DNA from: Clostridia bacterium
GTDB lineage: Bacteria > Bacillota > Peptococcia > DRI-13 > UBA5745
Length of the DNA stretch: 64,000 nucleotides
Direction: 5' to 3'
Assembly (NCBI GenBank): GCA_018436095.1
Contig: JAHDMJ010000001.1
Span: 186,001 to 250,000 of the forward strand
Below the pieces are notes generated by a model. That model searched no databases. It saw only the letters and a program-made list of their open reading frames with translations, and was not told where the DNA came from. The translations under genes were made by a program, and so were the position numbers. This document shows positions 2,238 to 9,002 of the stretch, one piece after another. Numbering within the stretch: position 1 is the first letter of the stretch; each line of letters starts with the position of its first letter.

Positions 2238-2588
2238 TTAGGCTGTTATGGAAATACCGCAATCTGCCGCCTTGTTTTTATGCGCAAACATGGCGGCCAA
2301 AGCCTGGCTGCCCGGCATACCCGTCCGGATACCGATAGCTTCAGCCTTTTTCGTAGCCTCTTTTACTTCCAGGCTCAACAAGTCTTCTAAAACCTTGACC
2401 CCCTCCATACGGGCGGCAACGATTTGCCGCTCGGGGTGCAGCCTGTCCAAGGCATCAATATTCAGTACCCCGCACATCAGATAACCTACCGGGGGAATCA
2501 CGATAGCCATCAGCTTAGTCTGAGGAAGCTGTACTTCTACACCCAGGGCCGTGCCTTCCGAAAATTTTAGAGGAATTATGCTAATCAT
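2238..2588 (-). CDS. DUF1805 (YunC-like) protein
   Basis: Soluble protein of 116 residues. The segment VGYLMCGVLNIDALDRL followed by AARMEGVKVLEDLL and GIRTGMPGSQAL is the pattern of the DUF1805/YunC family, whose biochemical function is not established. The start ATG overlaps the stop of tctA (ATGA, 2588-2585), with GGAGGTG placed 7 bases upstream, so it is translationally coupled to the tripartite transporter. That coupling suggests a role tied to the transported carboxylate, for example its metabolism or sensing; this is inference from position only. Confidence 0.75.
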   Translation of the reverse strand: MISIIPLKFSEGTALGVEVQLPQTKLMAIVIPPVGYLMCGVLNIDALDRLHPERQIVAARMEGVKVLEDLLSLEVKEATKKAEAIGIRTGMPGSQALAAMFAHKNKAADCGISITA

Positions 2589-4081
2589 AAGCTGGCACCT
2601 CCTTGCGATTCTTTGGAAGCTTTATATTGATTGCGCAAGGCGAAGAAAACAGAAGCGGCGGCAATGGCCAAAAAGACGACGCTGATAGCGCTGTGGAAAA
2701 AGATGCGCCAATCGCCGCCGGAACGGATTAAAGCTGCCCGGAAGCTGTTTTCCGCCAAGCTGCCCAGTACGATGGATAAAGCAATCGGCGCCAAAGGGAA
2801 ATCCATTTGTTCAAGGATATAGCCGGCAATTCCAAAAATCACCGCAATTTTCATATGGGCCAAAGAACTCTCGGCGGCATAGGCGCCGATCATAGAAAAT
2901 ATAGCGATAATCGGAATTAAGGTGGTTTTTTTCATGATGGCAATCTTGGCAATAGCCTTGGCCAAAAATAAACCGGTAAGAAGCATAACGATATTTCCCA
3001 CTATGGTGCTGACAAATATTGAGTTGATGATTCCCGGGTTGTTGCGAAAGAGCAATGGTCCTGGCTGCAAACCCTGAATGGTCAGAGCGCCCAGCAAAAC
3101 GGCGGTAACGGCATCGCCGGGCACCCCCAGAGTCAGCATGGGAATTAGCGCGCCGCCGGTAACGGCATTATTGGCGGATTCGGAGGCTGCCACTCCCTCA
3201 ATGATTCCTTTTCCGAAAAGCTCCGGAGTTTTGGAAGTGCGTTTACATTCGCTGTAAGCCACAAAAGAGGCAATATTTGCGCCGGCTCCGGGCAAAGCGC
3301 CGATAAAAGTACCGATCAGGCTGGATTTAAGAAGCACCCATTTTAATTGGCGCAAATCAGGCCAGCGGGGCAATATTCGTCCCACATTATCATGGATGGC
3401 ATCATCATCGTCAACACCTGCTTTAAATAAGCGCAGCAGTTCGGACAAGGCAAAAAGGCCAATAATAGCAGGCAGCAGGGGAAAGCCGATCATTAGGCTG
3501 CGGACGCCGAAGGTGAAGCGAGGATAAGCCACGATGACGTCGAAGCCTACCGTATTGATCACCAGACCGATTAACCCGGCGATGACTCCCTTCAATAAAT
3601 ATTTTCCGGAGACGGAAAAGATAATGGTCAATCCGAAGATTGCCAAAGCAAAATACTCGGCAGAGCTGAATTTGATCGCAAAATTTGAGATGAGTGGGGA
3701 CAGGAAAATCAAGAAAATGCAACTGATCTGACCGCCGATAAAGGAGGCGCTGGTGGCGATGCCTAGGGCCCTGCCCCCTTGCCCTTTTTGCATAAGGGGG
3801 TAGCCATCCAGGGAAGTAGCGGCAGCAGCCGGGGTGCCCGGCGTCCTCAACAGGATAGCGGTTATCGAGCCGCCGTATATGCCCCCCACATAAATACCGA
3901 TGAGCATGATTAAAGCCGTGGAGGCTTCCAGGCTAAAAGTGAAGGGCAGCAGCAGAGAAATAGCCAGCGTAGCCGTTAAGCCGGGAATAGCGCCCACAAT
4001 TATTCCCAAAACAACACCAAGGATCAGCAACACCAGATTGTGTATCTGAAAAACCGTCATTAAGCCATCAAGAAAACCCAT
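2585..4081 (-). CDS. tctA: Tripartite tricarboxylate transporter TctA
   Basis: Large membrane subunit (498 residues, about 11-12 hydrophobic segments) of a solute-binding-protein-dependent secondary transporter of the TTT family. Family marks include GAIPGLTATLAI near residue 35, the GIYVGGIYGGSITAILLRTPGTPAAAATSLDGYPL region, and a matching GALPGAGANIASFVAY in the second half, reflecting the internal duplication. ATG 4081 is preferred over TTG 4087 because GAGGTG lies 7 bases upstream. It follows tctB by 11 bases and overlaps the DUF1805 start. Substrate is not predictable; relatives carry citrate, tartrate or other carboxylates. Confidence 0.93.
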   Translation of the reverse strand: MGFLDGLMTVFQIHNLVLLILGVVLGIIVGAIPGLTATLAISLLLPFTFSLEASTALIMLIGIYVGGIYGGSITAILLRTPGTPAAAATSLDGYPLMQKGQGGRALGIATSASFIGGQISCIFLIFLSPLISNFAIKFSSAEYFALAIFGLTIIFSVSGKYLLKGVIAGLIGLVINTVGFDVIVAYPRFTFGVRSLMIGFPLLPAIIGLFALSELLRLFKAGVDDDDAIHDNVGRILPRWPDLRQLKWVLLKSSLIGTFIGALPGAGANIASFVAYSECKRTSKTPELFGKGIIEGVAASESANNAVTGGALIPMLTLGVPGDAVTAVLLGALTIQGLQPGPLLFRNNPGIINSIFVSTIVGNIVMLLTGLFLAKAIAKIAIMKKTTLIPIIAIFSMIGAYAAESSLAHMKIAVIFGIAGYILEQMDFPLAPIALSIVLGSLAENSFRAALIRSGGDWRIFFHSAISVVFLAIAAASVFFALRNQYKASKESQGGASL

Positions 4082-4092
4082 ATACAATCACC

Positions 4093-4635
4093 TCACAATA
4101 ACCAGGTTGCAGGAATAATACCTGCCGGCAAGCGCACAGACAAGCCTTTACTGAAAACCATATAAATGAAGGCTGTTAAAGCCAGAGCCTGAACAATGCG
4201 GAACCCTATTTGTTTTGGATTTTTTGTGGGCTCCAGAATATAGGTAATGACAAGAAAGTAAGCAGTGATGCTGATGATAAAACCCAAGGGCTGGAACAGA
4301 AAGAGAAAGATCATGGTAGCCAGCATAGCCGCCAGTACTCTTTTGTTGCCCGGGGTAAGGCTTGCCCATTTTTTTGTCAGGGAGCCTTGATTCCCTGAAA
4401 CCGCTTCCTGATTTTCTTTCTGCCCTTTAGGGATGTGTTTATAGCCAACGTACATTAAAACCAGAGAAAGAACCGCCAGCAGGCCTAAAACAATTCTGGG
4501 CCAAAGGGCAGGGCCGGCCACCGTATCGGGAGGCACATAAAAGTTCCGGCTTTCATTTAAGAGAAGTAAGCAAATCAAAAACAGCAAGCCGCCAAAAATC
4601 ATATCTCGTTTGCCCATTTTTATCATGTAAGACAT
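4093..4635 (-). CDS. tctB: Tripartite tricarboxylate transporter TctB
   Basis: Small membrane subunit of the TTT transporter, 180 residues with four hydrophobic segments (about residues 13-28, 46-62, 102-135 and 148-175). Sequence conservation in TctB is low; the call rests on size, topology and position between tctC and tctA. The start is uncertain among ATG 4635, 4626 and 4617, none with a strong ribosome binding site. A charged cytoplasmic loop (KGQKENQEAVSG region) separates the first and second helix pairs. Confidence 0.8.
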   Translation of the reverse strand: MSYMIKMGKRDMIFGGLLFLICLLLLNESRNFYVPPDTVAGPALWPRIVLGLLAVLSLVLMYVGYKHIPKGQKENQEAVSGNQGSLTKKWASLTPGNKRVLAAMLATMIFLFLFQPLGFIISITAYFLVITYILEPTKNPKQIGFRIVQALALTAFIYMVFSKGLSVRLPAGIIPATWLL

Positions 4636-4676: not shown

Positions 4677-5738
4677 TTAAATTAAGCCTAAATTAACCAT
4701 TGTCTGCTTCACCACAGGGGCTAGATTTTCCAAATATTTTACGGTTTCTTCTGCATCCATATAAATAGGGTCCGCCTTAGCGTCGCCAGCCCATTTTTGG
4801 AACTCCGGATTGTCAAAGGCTTTTTTGCCGGCCTGGCGCAAAAAATCTACGATTTCCGGAGGTGTATCCTTATGCACGGCTAAAATACGGAACCCGGCAA
4901 TAATTACATTGGGATAACCCATTTCTTTAAATGTGGGGATATCGGGAAATTCCGGCATCCGTTCTTCCGCCATAGTGCCGAGAATTTTCATTGCGCCGCT
5001 TTCCAGGTGAGGCAAAGCCACGGTCAAGGAGGTGGTCACGGCGTCACAATGTTTGCCCAAGAGCTCCGTCATTAACTCCGAGCTGCCGTTGGAAGGTACG
5101 AAAACCACGCAATCTTTGATGCCGGCCGCATCGGCCATCATGCCGGCGGCATGAAGCCAAAAGCCGTTGACGCCGATTTGCAGCGTCTTGCCGGCGGCCT
5201 TGGCAGCCAGGGCTGCCTGGCGAAAATCCTCAAAGGTTTCCCAGCCGGAATCCGCATTGACCACCAGATTAACGCCTTGTAGGGTAAATAAATTAATGAT
5301 GGCGAAGTCCTTGTAGGAATCTTCAGTAATGCCTTTTATTTCGTTGGAAAGGATATCGTAATTTAGCATGGCCATGGTATAGCCGTCGGCAGGCATACCT
5401 AAAGCCTGATTGATGCCGATGGAACCGTCACCGCCGGTAACATTCAATACATTGATATCCGTGCCGATTTCTTTGGACAGATAGCTAAGATAGGAACGGA
5501 AGGTAATATCGGAGCTGCCTCCGGCAGTCCAGGGGCAAATAGCCGTAATGGAACCTTTCGGATAGTCAAGAGAGGGAGCCGGCTCCGGTTCAGTAGCAGA
5601 GCCGCCGGGATTGACCGCTTCCGTTGCTTCCGAAGCAGTCCCTTGGCTCGATGCGGGACTTTGGCCACAGCCGGCCAGAGCAATACAAAGAAGCAGGATC
5701 ATCGATGCAGACAGAATTTTTATAAGTTCTTTCCTCAT
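4677..5738 (-). CDS. tctC: TctC-type solute-binding lipoprotein
   Basis: Extracytoplasmic binding protein (353 residues) that captures the carboxylate for TctAB. The N-terminus is a lipoprotein signal: positive MRKELIK, a hydrophobic stretch, then lipobox LAGC with Cys24 as the lipidated residue, as expected in a Gram-positive envelope. The mature domain begins after a Ser/Glu/Pro-rich linker and shows the Bug/TctC pattern (YPKGSITAICPWTAGGSSD, then GIGINQAL, then PDIPTFKEMGYP). ATG 5738 is chosen over 5753 because GAGGAGGGT precedes it by 4 bases. It lies 12 bases downstream of the small ribbon-helix-helix gene, so they are probably one transcript. Confidence 0.92.
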   Translation of the reverse strand: MRKELIKILSASMILLLCIALAGCGQSPASSQGTASEATEAVNPGGSATEPEPAPSLDYPKGSITAICPWTAGGSSDITFRSYLSYLSKEIGTDINVLNVTGGDGSIGINQALGMPADGYTMAMLNYDILSNEIKGITEDSYKDFAIINLFTLQGVNLVVNADSGWETFEDFRQAALAAKAAGKTLQIGVNGFWLHAAGMMADAAGIKDCVVFVPSNGSSELMTELLGKHCDAVTTSLTVALPHLESGAMKILGTMAEERMPEFPDIPTFKEMGYPNVIIAGFRILAVHKDTPPEIVDFLRQAGKKAFDNPEFQKWAGDAKADPIYMDAEETVKYLENLAPVVKQTMVNLGLI

Positions 5739-5749
5739 GTTTACCCTCC

Positions 5750-5962
5750 TCAATATTGTTGCGATTTTTCCGTTTCGTTTTCCCCGGGGTTGGCGGGCTT
5801 ATTTTGGCCAGATTGCTCTTTTTGCTTCCTCACCATTGCCAGACCTACAGTCAATACGTAGTGGATAAGCTTAGTTTTACTTTTTTGGGCAAATTTTTCT
5901 TTCTTGAGAATGTTCAACCCTTCTTCAATATCCGAGGTAACAAAAAGTGTAAATCTTGCCAT
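5750..5962 (-). CDS. Small ribbon-helix-helix-like protein, first gene of tct operon
   Basis: A 70-residue basic protein. Residues 4-8 (FTLFV) could form the beta strand, and two amphipathic helices follow (IEEGLNILKKEKF and SKTKLIHYVLTVGLAMV), the layout of MetJ/Arc/CopG-type repressors. The C-terminal 20 residues are polar and probably disordered. AAAGGAGGT sits upstream of ATG 5962. Its place at the head of the tct operon, opposite another ribbon-helix-helix gene, suggests local regulation. The fold is inferred from pattern only. Confidence 0.6.
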   Translation of the reverse strand: MARFTLFVTSDIEEGLNILKKEKFAQKSKTKLIHYVLTVGLAMVRKQKEQSGQNKPANPGENETEKSQQY

Positions 5963-6061
5963 AGCCGTTAGAAACCTCCTTTACTTTTGAATTTTAGTGT
6001 CCTTAAGCTTAAAACCCGGTCCGGCATTCCGGTGAATAGGTGAAGTGGTGAACTATAAGTT

Positions 6062-6147
6062 ATTATATCGCATCACTGATGAACCGGTCAAGTAGATGCA
6101 GGGTTTTTCTTTACATCTTTACATCAGTTCATCACTGATGGTATAAT
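6062..6147. promoter_or_regulatory. Twin divergent promoters with palindromic operators
   Basis: Two sigma-A-type promoters point away from each other. Minus strand (tct operon): -35 TTGACC (6091-6086), 18-base spacer, -10 TATAAT (6067-6062). Plus strand (6167 gene): -35 TTTACA (6118-6123), 18-base spacer, -10 TATAAT (6142-6147). Each spacer contains the same palindrome CATCACTGATG (6071-6081 and 6130-6140), arms CATCA/TGATG. A repressor bound there would block both promoters. The likely ligands are the flanking ribbon-helix-helix proteins; that last step is inference. Confidence 0.75.
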
Positions 6148-6166
6148 TATTAACGAGGTGATAAAT

Positions 6167-6355
6167 ATGCCAACAGAAAAACCAAGGTATACCATCACCG
6201 TTAGTGATGGCCTGCTGAAGGAAATCGACGACTACAGGTACGAAAATCGTTTTCCCACCCGAACCCAGGCTACTCTTGAGCTGATTCGCATTGGCCTGGA
6301 AACATTGAAAAAGGAATCTGCCGGAGAAAAATCCGATGATTCATCTGACCAATAG
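6167..6355 (+). CDS. Ribbon-helix-helix transcriptional regulator
   Basis: A 62-residue protein with the CopG/Arc-type pattern: strand PRYTITVSDGLL (about residues 6-17), helix 1 LLKEIDDYRYEN, the turn FPTRTQATLELIRIGLE (about 31-47) as helix 2, and a charged acidic tail. GTG 6158 in the same frame is part of the ribosome binding site GAGGTG, so ATG 6167 is the start. Palindrome 6130-6140 sits inside its own promoter spacer, so autorepression and repression of the divergent tct operon are likely. Confidence 0.8.
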   Translation: MPTEKPRYTITVSDGLLKEIDDYRYENRFPTRTQATLELIRIGLETLKKESAGEKSDDSSDQ

Positions 6356-6388
6356 CTCAGAAGCAGAGTAAAGGTATCTGACAAAAAA

Positions 6389-6440
6389 AACAGACATCCG
6401 TTTATTGGCCTTCTTTGGTGCCGGGGGATGTCTGTTTTTT
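6389..6440. terminator. Bidirectional terminator
   Basis: AACAGACATCC (6389-6399) pairs with GGATGTCTGTT (6426-6436), followed on the plus strand by a T run and preceded by an A run. It can stop transcription of the plus-strand 6167 gene and of the minus-strand DUF4130 gene that ends at 6463. Confidence 0.85.
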
Positions 6441-6462
6441 CTATTCTGCTTTATAACGGGAG

Positions 6463-7428
6463 TTAAAATAATTCTTGCATTTCCGTCATGTTTTCCCAGT
6501 AGCGTTTCGGCATATGGGTCATCCGGCACCTGGGGTTGTAACGGGCCTCAATGGCAACGGTATGATAAAACTTTTTCCACAAATCCCGATAGCGGGTCTC
6601 CGTCTCGTCAGCTTCAGGAAAGGGCAGCTCTTCCAAGGGAACGATACGGCGGCGGCCCTTTTGGCAGATCAGCGCCGCTTTATGGGTCTTGTCATAAATC
6701 AGAAAATTCTCCTGGGAAAAGCGGGCGCAAAAGTGGCCGGCAATATAGGGTAAAACAAAGTTTTTCGGCGTAATGGAGGCAGCCAGCACCCCTTCATAAT
6801 CAGAGAAACGTACAAAGCCTTTGAGCAAGTGGGCTTCTCCCATGAGATGCTTCTCCGCCTTTAAAAGGGGCGCCACGTCGGGATGGCCCAGCATCCGCAG
6901 GGCCTTGCTGCCCTCCCGGTAAGCCAGCAGCAGAAAGCGCAGAATCAACAGCTCCTTTTGCTGCAAGCAGCTAAGAAATACGTTTTCCACCAAAGCCAAA
7001 GCGTCCTTCGATATCTTAACCGGTATGGAGCTGCGGACCCGGGCTGCCTTGTCCTGGTCGGTGATGATAGACTTAACCTGAAACAAAGTGGGCTGAGCTT
7101 CTTTGGCCGGCAGGATAGCCGTGGGCAGCTCCCGGAAATAAACGCTTTCATAAACGCAACAGAAAAAACCGGCTAAGCCGCCATCATAATGATAAACGAT
7201 GTCGCTGGGCAAGGCCAAAGGCTTAGGCTGGACTTGAGGCCTGCGGGAGGATTGGCTGCCCCGAAAGCTTTGGCTTTGGGCTTCAGTCCGCTCCGAAGCC
7301 CCCTCCTGATAGGAAGCACCAGCCTGGCAGGAGGCTCCTGCCTGATTAAAAGCCGCTCCCCGGCATGACCGGCAATTGCGGCTGCCCGGGCTCTTGGGAC
7401 AGATTCCCCCTGTATATGGGCACTTCAT
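6463..7428 (-). CDS. DUF4130 probable DNA-metabolism protein
   Basis: Protein of 321 residues matching the family found beside a radical-SAM DNA repair/modification candidate (TIGR03915/DUF4130 pair). After a Cys-rich start (CPYTGGICPKSPGSRNCRSC) and a Gln/Ser-rich linker with SYQEGAS-like repeats, the conserved part begins at about residue 70 (IVYHYDGGLAGFFCCVYESV) and ends with YNPRCRMTHMPKRYWENM. ATG 7428 overlaps the stop of the radical-SAM gene (ATGA), so the pair is translationally coupled. The N-terminal Cys cluster may bind metal; function beyond the genomic association is unknown. Confidence 0.8.
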   Translation of the reverse strand: MKCPYTGGICPKSPGSRNCRSCRGAAFNQAGASCQAGASYQEGASERTEAQSQSFRGSQSSRRPQVQPKPLALPSDIVYHYDGGLAGFFCCVYESVYFRELPTAILPAKEAQPTLFQVKSIITDQDKAARVRSSIPVKISKDALALVENVFLSCLQQKELLILRFLLLAYREGSKALRMLGHPDVAPLLKAEKHLMGEAHLLKGFVRFSDYEGVLAASITPKNFVLPYIAGHFCARFSQENFLIYDKTHKAALICQKGRRRIVPLEELPFPEADETETRYRDLWKKFYHTVAIEARYNPRCRMTHMPKRYWENMTEMQELF

Positions 7429-8939
7429 AGGTTTTGAGCCAGACACAGCACCGCCTCCTCCACCCCTTCCTCCAAAGAGCACACATCGCCGGCGCCGGGC
7501 AGAGCTTGGACCTGGCTTTTCTTCGCCTTGATCTTAGCGTCTATTGGCGTCCTGGTTGGGCTGTCTGCACTGACGCTATAGCCATAGGGAACAGCCGGCC
7601 CGGCCAGATCCCTCTCCCCATTTTCCATCTGCCAACTTGCCGATTCCGCACCTGCGCCTCCAAAACCAGGCTCCAGCAGGTCTTGACCTGTAAGGGAGGG
7701 TGCTGCCTGCCCAAAGAGGCTGAGCTGCTCCCGGCCTACGGAATAAATCCCCGGATCAATTAAAGCTCTGACGGTAGTCTCTTTGCCAATGCGCAAGCCC
7801 AGGGGATAATCGGCAGTAATAATAAAGTATTGGGCCCGTTTCAGGACTACTCCAATCTTCTTTAGCTCCGCCATGCCCAGCCGTCCGGTGCGGCGGGCAA
7901 TCACAATGCGGCGGGCACTGGTGGGGCCGATGCCCGGTACCCGCAAGAGCTCCGCTTGGCTGGCCTTATTGATATCCACGGGGAAAAATTCCATATGATG
8001 AATAGCCCAATTGCACTTGGGATCCAGATAAGGATTGAAATTCGGCGTCTCTTCGCTAAGGATCTCATCGGCGGCAAACTGGTACTGCCGCATAAGGAAA
8101 TCTGCCTGGTAAAGCCGGTGCTCCCGCAAAAGGGGCGGCTTCGTATCCAGGGAGGGCAGCAGAGAGTTTTCTGCCACAGGTATATAAGCGGAGTAAAACA
8201 CCCGTTTCAGCTCATAGCGCTGATATAAGTTTGAGGCCAGGGTAAGAATGCGGTAATCCGTCTCCGGCGTAGCCCCAACGATCATCTGAGTGGCTTGTCC
8301 TGCGGAAGCAAAACGGGGGGCATTCTTATACACCACGATTTCCTGACGGTTTTCCTGGAGGCCCTGCCGAATCTGGCCCATAGGAATCAATATGCCCTTC
8401 TTCGTCTTATTGGGAGCCAGCTTCTGCAGGCTGGCTTCGCTGGGCAGCTCAATATTTACACTGAGACGGTCCGCTAAAAGCCCCAGCCGGTGAATCAGCT
8501 CCCGGGAGGTGCCGGGAATGGTCTTGGCATGGATGTAGCCGTAAAAGTGGTATTTATGGCGGAGGATCTCTAAGGCCCGGATCATCCGCTCCGTAGTATA
8601 GTCGGGGTCTTTTAATATGCCGCTGGATAAAAAAAGCCCTTCGATATAATTGCGGCGGTAAAACTGAACCGTCAGGTCAGCCAGCTCCTCCGGGGTAAAG
8701 GTAGCCCGGGGCACGTCATTGCTGCTGCGATTAACGCAATACTGGCAATCATAAATACAGCTATTGGTCATCAAGACCTTTAGCAAAGAAATACAGCGGC
8801 CATCGGCAGAAAAAGAATGGCAGCAGCCGGCGGCCAGAGCGCTGCCCAGACCCTTATTCCCCGGCCTTTCAGCACCGGAAGAAGTGCAAGCCACATCATA
8901 CTTGGCCCCTTCAGTCAATATCGTTAATTTCTCCATCAT
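7425..8939 (-). CDS. Radical-SAM DNA modification/repair candidate
   Basis: Protein of about 504 residues with the radical-SAM cluster CIYDCQYC (Cys61, 65 and 68 counted from ATG 8939), which would hold a [4Fe-4S] cluster for S-adenosylmethionine cleavage. At about residues 325-355 is a helix-hairpin-helix, ASQAELLRVPGIGPTSARRI, a non-specific DNA-binding motif. This combination is the signature of the TIGR03916 family that pairs with DUF4130. The C-terminal 90 residues are low complexity. Start is ambiguous: TTG 8945 has GGTGAG 5 bases upstream, while ATG 8939 has it 11 bases upstream. The LexA-like repressor gene lies just upstream on the same strand. Confidence 0.87.
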   Translation of the reverse strand: MMEKLTILTEGAKYDVACTSSGAERPGNKGLGSALAAGCCHSFSADGRCISLLKVLMTNSCIYDCQYCVNRSSNDVPRATFTPEELADLTVQFYRRNYIEGLFLSSGILKDPDYTTERMIRALEILRHKYHFYGYIHAKTIPGTSRELIHRLGLLADRLSVNIELPSEASLQKLAPNKTKKGILIPMGQIRQGLQENRQEIVVYKNAPRFASAGQATQMIVGATPETDYRILTLASNLYQRYELKRVFYSAYIPVAENSLLPSLDTKPPLLREHRLYQADFLMRQYQFAADEILSEETPNFNPYLDPKCNWAIHHMEFFPVDINKASQAELLRVPGIGPTSARRIVIARRTGRLGMAELKKIGVVLKRAQYFIITADYPLGLRIGKETTVRALIDPGIYSVGREQLSLFGQAAPSLTGQDLLEPGFGGAGAESASWQMENGERDLAGPAVPYGYSVSADSPTRTPIDAKIKAKKSQVQALPGAGDVCSLEEGVEEAVLCLAQNL

Positions 8940-9002
8940 ATCCAAGGAAACTCACCGACCCTCAATCTATACCGCTTATAAATTCATATCATCGGCCGCC
9001 GC

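Follow-up and report, generated by a model that had tools for sequence, protein, structure and literature searches.

A probable two-protein ribbon-helix-helix switch at a tripartite tricarboxylate transporter operon, with related cassettes in Clostridia and phages

In the window (the whole 64,000-nucleotide stretch of DNA that was analyzed), two divergent genes for small ribbon-helix-helix (RHH)-like proteins, designated RHH-A and RHH-B, flank a control region that we consider likely to be a two-protein autoregulatory switch of the Mnt/Arc type (phage P22 immI), with a tripartite transporter operon in the place of the antirepressor. The preliminary description of this DNA had proposed a compact switch for a carboxylate transporter. 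That the switch is specific to such a transporter was not supported: numerous Clostridia, and phages too, carry the same two-gene, two-promoter cassette with different cargo.

Promoters, boxes and genes in the window

The features of the locus are listed below by coordinates, with the strand in parentheses where one applies.

2238 to 2588 (-): DUF1805 gene, probably the last gene of the operon (PF08827, E 2e-18; 4-bp overlap with the tctA stop)
2585 to 4087 (-): tctA (PF01970, E 2e-151)
4093 to 4635 (-): tctB (PF07331, E 7e-19)
4677 to 5738 (-): tctC, solute-binding lipoprotein of the tripartite tricarboxylate transporter (PF03401, E 6e-31)
5750 to 5962 (-): RHH-B, 70 aa, Arc-position gene, first gene of the tct operon (ORF, profile, model)
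6027 to 6056: probable third box, made of repeated GGTGAA-type half-sites close to where the P_B transcript is expected to begin (predicted from sequence)
6062 to 6091 (-): promoter P_B, driving RHH-B-tctCBA; TTGACC (6091-6086), 18 bp, TATAAT (6067-6062)
6071 to 6084 (-): operator-like box O_B, GTTCATCAGTGATG, in the P_B spacer (sequence; two substitutions in the sister species, at 6073 and 6076)
6118 to 6147 (+): promoter P_A; TTTACA (6118-6123), 18 bp, TATAAT (6142-6147)
6127 to 6140 (+): operator-like box O_A, GTTCATCACTGATG, in the P_A spacer (sequence)
6167 to 6355 (+): RHH-A, 62 aa, Mnt-position repressor-like gene (ORF, profile, model; alternative GTG start at 6158)
6385 to 6440: terminator hairpin on which the RHH-A and DUF4130 genes converge (fold -26.3 kcal/mol, z -5.4), its arms ending in A and T runs

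P_A and P_B diverge and face outward between the leftward gene 5750-5962 and the rightward gene 6167-6355. Both are near-consensus promoters of the sigma-70 type (11 of 12 matches each), and they were the top-scoring two among 8 promoter-like sites in 5000-8000, compared with an average of 2.6 sites in shuffles. As the preliminary description had stated, their spacers are of equal length (18 bases) and each holds the 11-mer CATCACTGATG, which was present with zero mismatches at 6071-6081 and 6130-6140. The element common to both spacers is longer than was noted there. Read on each promoter's own strand, it is the 14-bp inverted repeat GTTCATCASTGATG (6084-6071 on the minus strand and 6127-6140 on the plus strand), forming an inverted 14-mer pair with palindromic cores. 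The mirror-image layout that had been claimed holds for the 18-bp spacers but not for the position of the palindrome center, whose distance to the -10 is 7 bp on the plus side and 9 bp on the minus side.

The sister species (locus L009, the same contig and place as G004) kept 30 of the 30 bases of P_A and 28 of the 30 bases of P_B, a total of 58/60 in the two promoter boxes versus 75/114 in the remaining intergenic region (third box excluded). The probable third box kept 26/30 bases, and extra boxes at a comparable position were present in many relatives. The gap between the -35 hexamers is 26 bp in the window and 18 bp in the sister species; over 37 loci it varied from 8 to 152 bp, which argues against phased looping between the two boxes, and looping was rejected.

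Short palindromes are common, and with up to 2 mismatches the 11-mer occurred 24 times in the window versus 12.9 expected, as might be the case if the palindromes had arisen by chance in AT-rich promoters. This explanation is hardly credible and was rejected on the exact copies, the shuffle tests and the sister-species conservation: two exact copies stand in two promoter spacers, are kept between species and are paralleled in tens of loci. In the 3.7-Mb genome the exact 11-mer was found at 6 places, of which 2 are these spacers and the other 4 are inside ORFs. Because those four copies are intragenic, the idea of a wider regulon, with additional targets wherever the box recurs exactly, was rejected. 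Their location also argues against the palindromes being operators of an unrelated global regulator with the RHH genes as bystanders, as does the variation of the boxes between lineages together with the RHH proteins; no support was found for this reading, which we consider very improbable. Judged by their sequence, the palindromes appear operator-like, in agreement with the role first proposed for them.

Profiles and predicted models indicated that both outward genes probably encode small RHH-like proteins, as had been suggested. RHH-A has the order of elements of the RHH superfamily, a short N-terminal strand followed by two helices, with the strand unassigned in the monomer model (helices 14-27 and 32-56, pLDDT 85). 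The RHH-A family profile matched the NikR N-domain (E 7.1e-6), and a Foldseek search with the model gave NikR and RHH antitoxins as best matches (prob 0.99 but E only 0.09). The RHH-B model has helices at 10-23 and 29-51 (pLDDT 79.6), and its best PDB structure match, CopG, was weak (prob 0.41, E 1.8). In both models the N-terminus is unassigned and two helices follow, as would be expected for an RHH monomer in which the strand forms only in the dimer. Window RHH-B matched the profile of the other RHH-B proteins (prob 95.7%), and the RHH-A and RHH-B profiles were related to each other (prob 95.4%). Taken singly, neither window protein matched a Pfam family, and Pfam and NCBIfam searches with them gave weak NikR hits at most. 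Pfam RHH_1 was matched at E <= 0.1 by 3 of 30 RHH-B family members, and window RHH-B had no Pfam match.

The predicted promoter and the gene order support the earlier view that one of the two promoters drives the tct operon. The minus-strand operon does include tct, but its first gene is the RHH gene 5750-5962; tctC is second, starting 11 nt after the RHH-B stop (TGA). Genes for all three parts of a tripartite tricarboxylate transporter, tctC, tctB and tctA, were present. The neighbors of the RHH genes encode TctC, TctB, TctA, DUF1805 and DUF4130/TIGR03915 proteins and no toxin, and a toxin-antitoxin module was rejected. Beyond the hairpin, 6463-8945 holds a putative DNA repair gene (DUF4130/TIGR03915) and, upstream of it, a 506-aa ORF that is presumably its radical-SAM partner.

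On this arrangement, P_A would yield RHH-A, and P_B would yield RHH-B together with TctC, TctB, TctA and the DUF1805 protein. RHH-A, and probably also RHH-B, would bind the palindromic boxes of both promoters. Since these boxes lie between -35 and -10, bound protein and RNA polymerase would compete; a bound protein would exclude the polymerase, and each protein would limit expression of both its own and the partner gene. Because the same box stands in both promoters, one protein could shut both, and the two proteins could act on each other's genes, whether through mutual antagonism or heterodimers. The expectation is that both promoters would be repressed mainly by RHH-A, with RHH-B as the cotranscribed feedback partner, and the transporter operon would be on when P_B wins. 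Both proteins are too small to include a ligand domain, which makes direct carboxylate sensing unlikely; a change of protein level is the more likely trigger.

Distribution of the cassette and covariation of boxes and proteins

The scan of bacterial and archaeal genomes yielded 34 RHH-A relatives: 32 clostridial, and two distant ones from Desulfobacterales and Devosia. Two divergent RHH genes around one control region were found in the relatives as well as in the window, with a divergent RHH-B gene in 26 of the 32 clostridial loci (L009-L040), a truncated copy in L017 and none recognized in 5/32. The RHH-B of L017 (L017:6001) is cut to 32 aa, and RHH-A and the boxes remain. RHH-A matches at E <= 1e-6 were obtained in 9 of 398 sampled genomes of the phylum, several of them weak, which indicates a patchy distribution; L064 was a clear cassette among the low-scoring genome matches. 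Phage and viral records with RHH-A relatives comprised the Clostridioides phage phiCD27 together with a related plasmid record from C. difficile and nine contigs of IMG/VR, and RHH-B used as a query against the viral contigs gave no match. In the plasmid record (L049:761-5093), the RHH-A/RHH-B pair is surrounded by several HTH regulators and three genes for KilAC antirepressors. A local search of 10 other tctC loci from this genus and its relatives (L072-L081) gave no RHH-A or RHH-B match, and the idea that RHH genes are a general feature of tct operons was rejected on these loci.

The loci compared were the window, 32 genome loci, phiCD27 and eight viral contigs (42 in total). Left out were L041, L042, L046 and L047 (distant RHH), L043 and L052 (one contig, whose RHH-A and promoters match those of L024 exactly), L053 and L055 (on contigs already represented by L044 and L045), and L060-L069. 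Both promoters scored at least 10 in 35/42 loci versus 0/2100 dinucleotide shuffles; the seven loci below this score were L010, L013, L017, L025, L032, L039 and L051. The longest word common to the A and B spacers of a locus had a mean length of 8.8 and reached at least 7 in 33/35 loci, compared with a mean of 4.1, and at least 7 in 1.3%, for shuffled spacers.

The boxes match within a locus and differ between lineages. The box types are given here by lineage with RHH-A residues 9 and 11, which we take, from CopG-type strands, to be the predicted DNA-reading positions.

GTTCA/GAAC: T-I
GTGTATCASTGATACAC: C-T
GGTTCACTGAACC: T-S
CACCASTGGTG/GTGGTGAAC: T-T
CATCASTGATG (window genus): T-T

The word TGTATCASTGATACA is the operator word of one lineage other than that of the window. 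Operator words tracked RHH-A residues 9 and 11, with 0 of 2000 label permutations as strong (kinship ignored). Distance correlations, also with kinship ignored, were rho 0.67 between RHH-A and RHH-B, 0.65 between RHH-A and operator, and 0.78 between RHH-B and operator (0/2000 permutations each), and were computed over those 28 of the 42 loci that had scorable promoters and, in the table, both protein sequences. On the tree, which has 62 columns and is poorly resolved, the residue classes nearly coincide with clades and the label changes 4 times, so the independent evidence amounts to about five lineages and not 35 loci.

These data also bear on which protein would bind which box. Window RHH-B is divergent, with 15-32% identity to the other RHH-Bs (sister species excepted). 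It is the odd one out in the reading strand, having F at an aligned reading position that is mostly V, A, S or T in the others, and it is without the FY[DN] motif of the family; it may not share the predicted operator. It is conceivable, though on balance doubtful, that RHH-A is the only protein that binds the boxes and that RHH-B, having lost DNA binding or never had it, acts as an anti-repressor through mixed dimers with RHH-A, which the relatedness of the two profiles makes thinkable. Against this, over the 28 loci the distances of RHH-B followed those of the operators no less closely than the distances of RHH-A did, and RHH-B retains Arg at the aligned first reading position. In P22, Arc and Mnt bind different boxes. 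The same could apply here, with one RHH protein at the spacer palindromes and the other at the half-sites in 6027-6056, and the partly conserved box outside the spacers would fit such a division. The match between the spacer boxes of both promoters within each locus argues against it, and we consider separate boxes rather unlikely. The preferred reading is still that RHH-A, and probably RHH-B, act at the boxes shared by both promoters.

Genes behind RHH-B and possible mobility of the cassette

The gene after RHH-B varied by locus, and tctCBA was found there only in this genus (the window and the sister species). In phiCD27 and the viral contig L051, an ANT-domain antirepressor gene lies behind the divergent RHH-B gene, 16 nt after its stop or abutting it. 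L016 and L019 carry a sugar-type solute-binding protein gene 37 nt behind RHH-B, L031 an ABC ATPase gene at 11 nt, and L040 a gene for a BspA-type surface protein at 40 nt. Many other loci had no gene start close behind RHH-B.

One viral contig (L057:1365-3399) encodes a transposase of the ISL3 family (PF01610). The start of its gene overlaps the stop of RHH-A, and RHH-B is divergent. The RHH pair and the transposase are enclosed by perfect 64-bp inverted repeats, forming a transposon that is apparently controlled by the same two-RHH switch. A search of the viral contigs for further copies of this transposase returned only L057 itself. Transposase fragments lie behind RHH-A in L014, in L034 and, by a weaker match, in L017, and a terminal-repeat-like motif was present beyond RHH-B in L012, L014, L030 and L034. 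A search for this motif out to 5 kb from the window RHH-A found none.

We tentatively suggest, as a reading that is about as open to doubt as to belief, that the two-RHH genes form a plug-in mobile cassette that moves among phages, an ISL3-type transposon and host operons. It would govern whatever lies behind RHH-B, be it an antirepressor or an ABC or Tct transporter, and the operators and both proteins would change together, insulating the copies from one another.

Comparison with known systems

In the open-access literature, covered by titles and the starts of abstracts and with subscription journals mostly outside, no description was found of a two-RHH switch paired with a transporter operon, nor of a two-RHH cassette that occurs so broadly, in Clostridia, in phages and in an ISL3 element, with operators specific to each lineage. 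Should binding be confirmed, the family would supply RHH-operator pairs from about five lineages that have diverged in nature and have compact promoters. Such pairs could help to decipher the RHH recognition code and could serve as orthogonal genetic switches. The window would then be a case of a phage-type lysis/lysogeny control module recruited to the control of nutrient uptake.

Autorepression by small RHH proteins is well known. The window proteins resemble CopG/NikR-type RHH regulators in predicted fold, with an N-terminal strand-helix-helix; unlike NikR, they are without a metal-binding domain and are paired with a divergent partner gene.

TctD/TctE is a two-component system that controls tct transport operons. 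PMC4513871 ties this regulator to a tripartite tricarboxylate transporter. TctD/TctE differs from the window switch in being two-component and in consisting of unrelated proteins.

The kind of switch proposed here is already known from P22. The immI region has a divergent layout, and the Arc operator lies between the -35 and -10 of P_ant. According to PMC11016777, Mnt is a repressor of both arc and ant, and Arc inhibits mnt and also has a moderating effect on ant; the immI gene order is mnt-arc-ant in PMC8022706. Like the window, immI has two small RHH repressor genes and a third gene behind the Arc-position gene. The window differs in having tctCBA in place of ant and one palindrome common to both promoters. 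The Arc and Mnt families were absent from the Pfam matches at E <= 0.1 for 36 RHH-A and 30 RHH-B sequences. An antirepressor gene cotranscribed with the Arc-position gene was found in phiCD27 and L051; in the window, tctC follows RHH-B.

The phage phiCD27 also resembles the window in its proteins and its box. Its orf47, annotated only as a transcriptional repressor, is an RHH-A homologue (65% identity), its orf48 is a divergent RHH-B homologue, and its spacer box CACCACTGGTG resembles the window 11-mer. The cargo gene orf49 sets phiCD27 apart, as it encodes an antirepressor and not a transporter.
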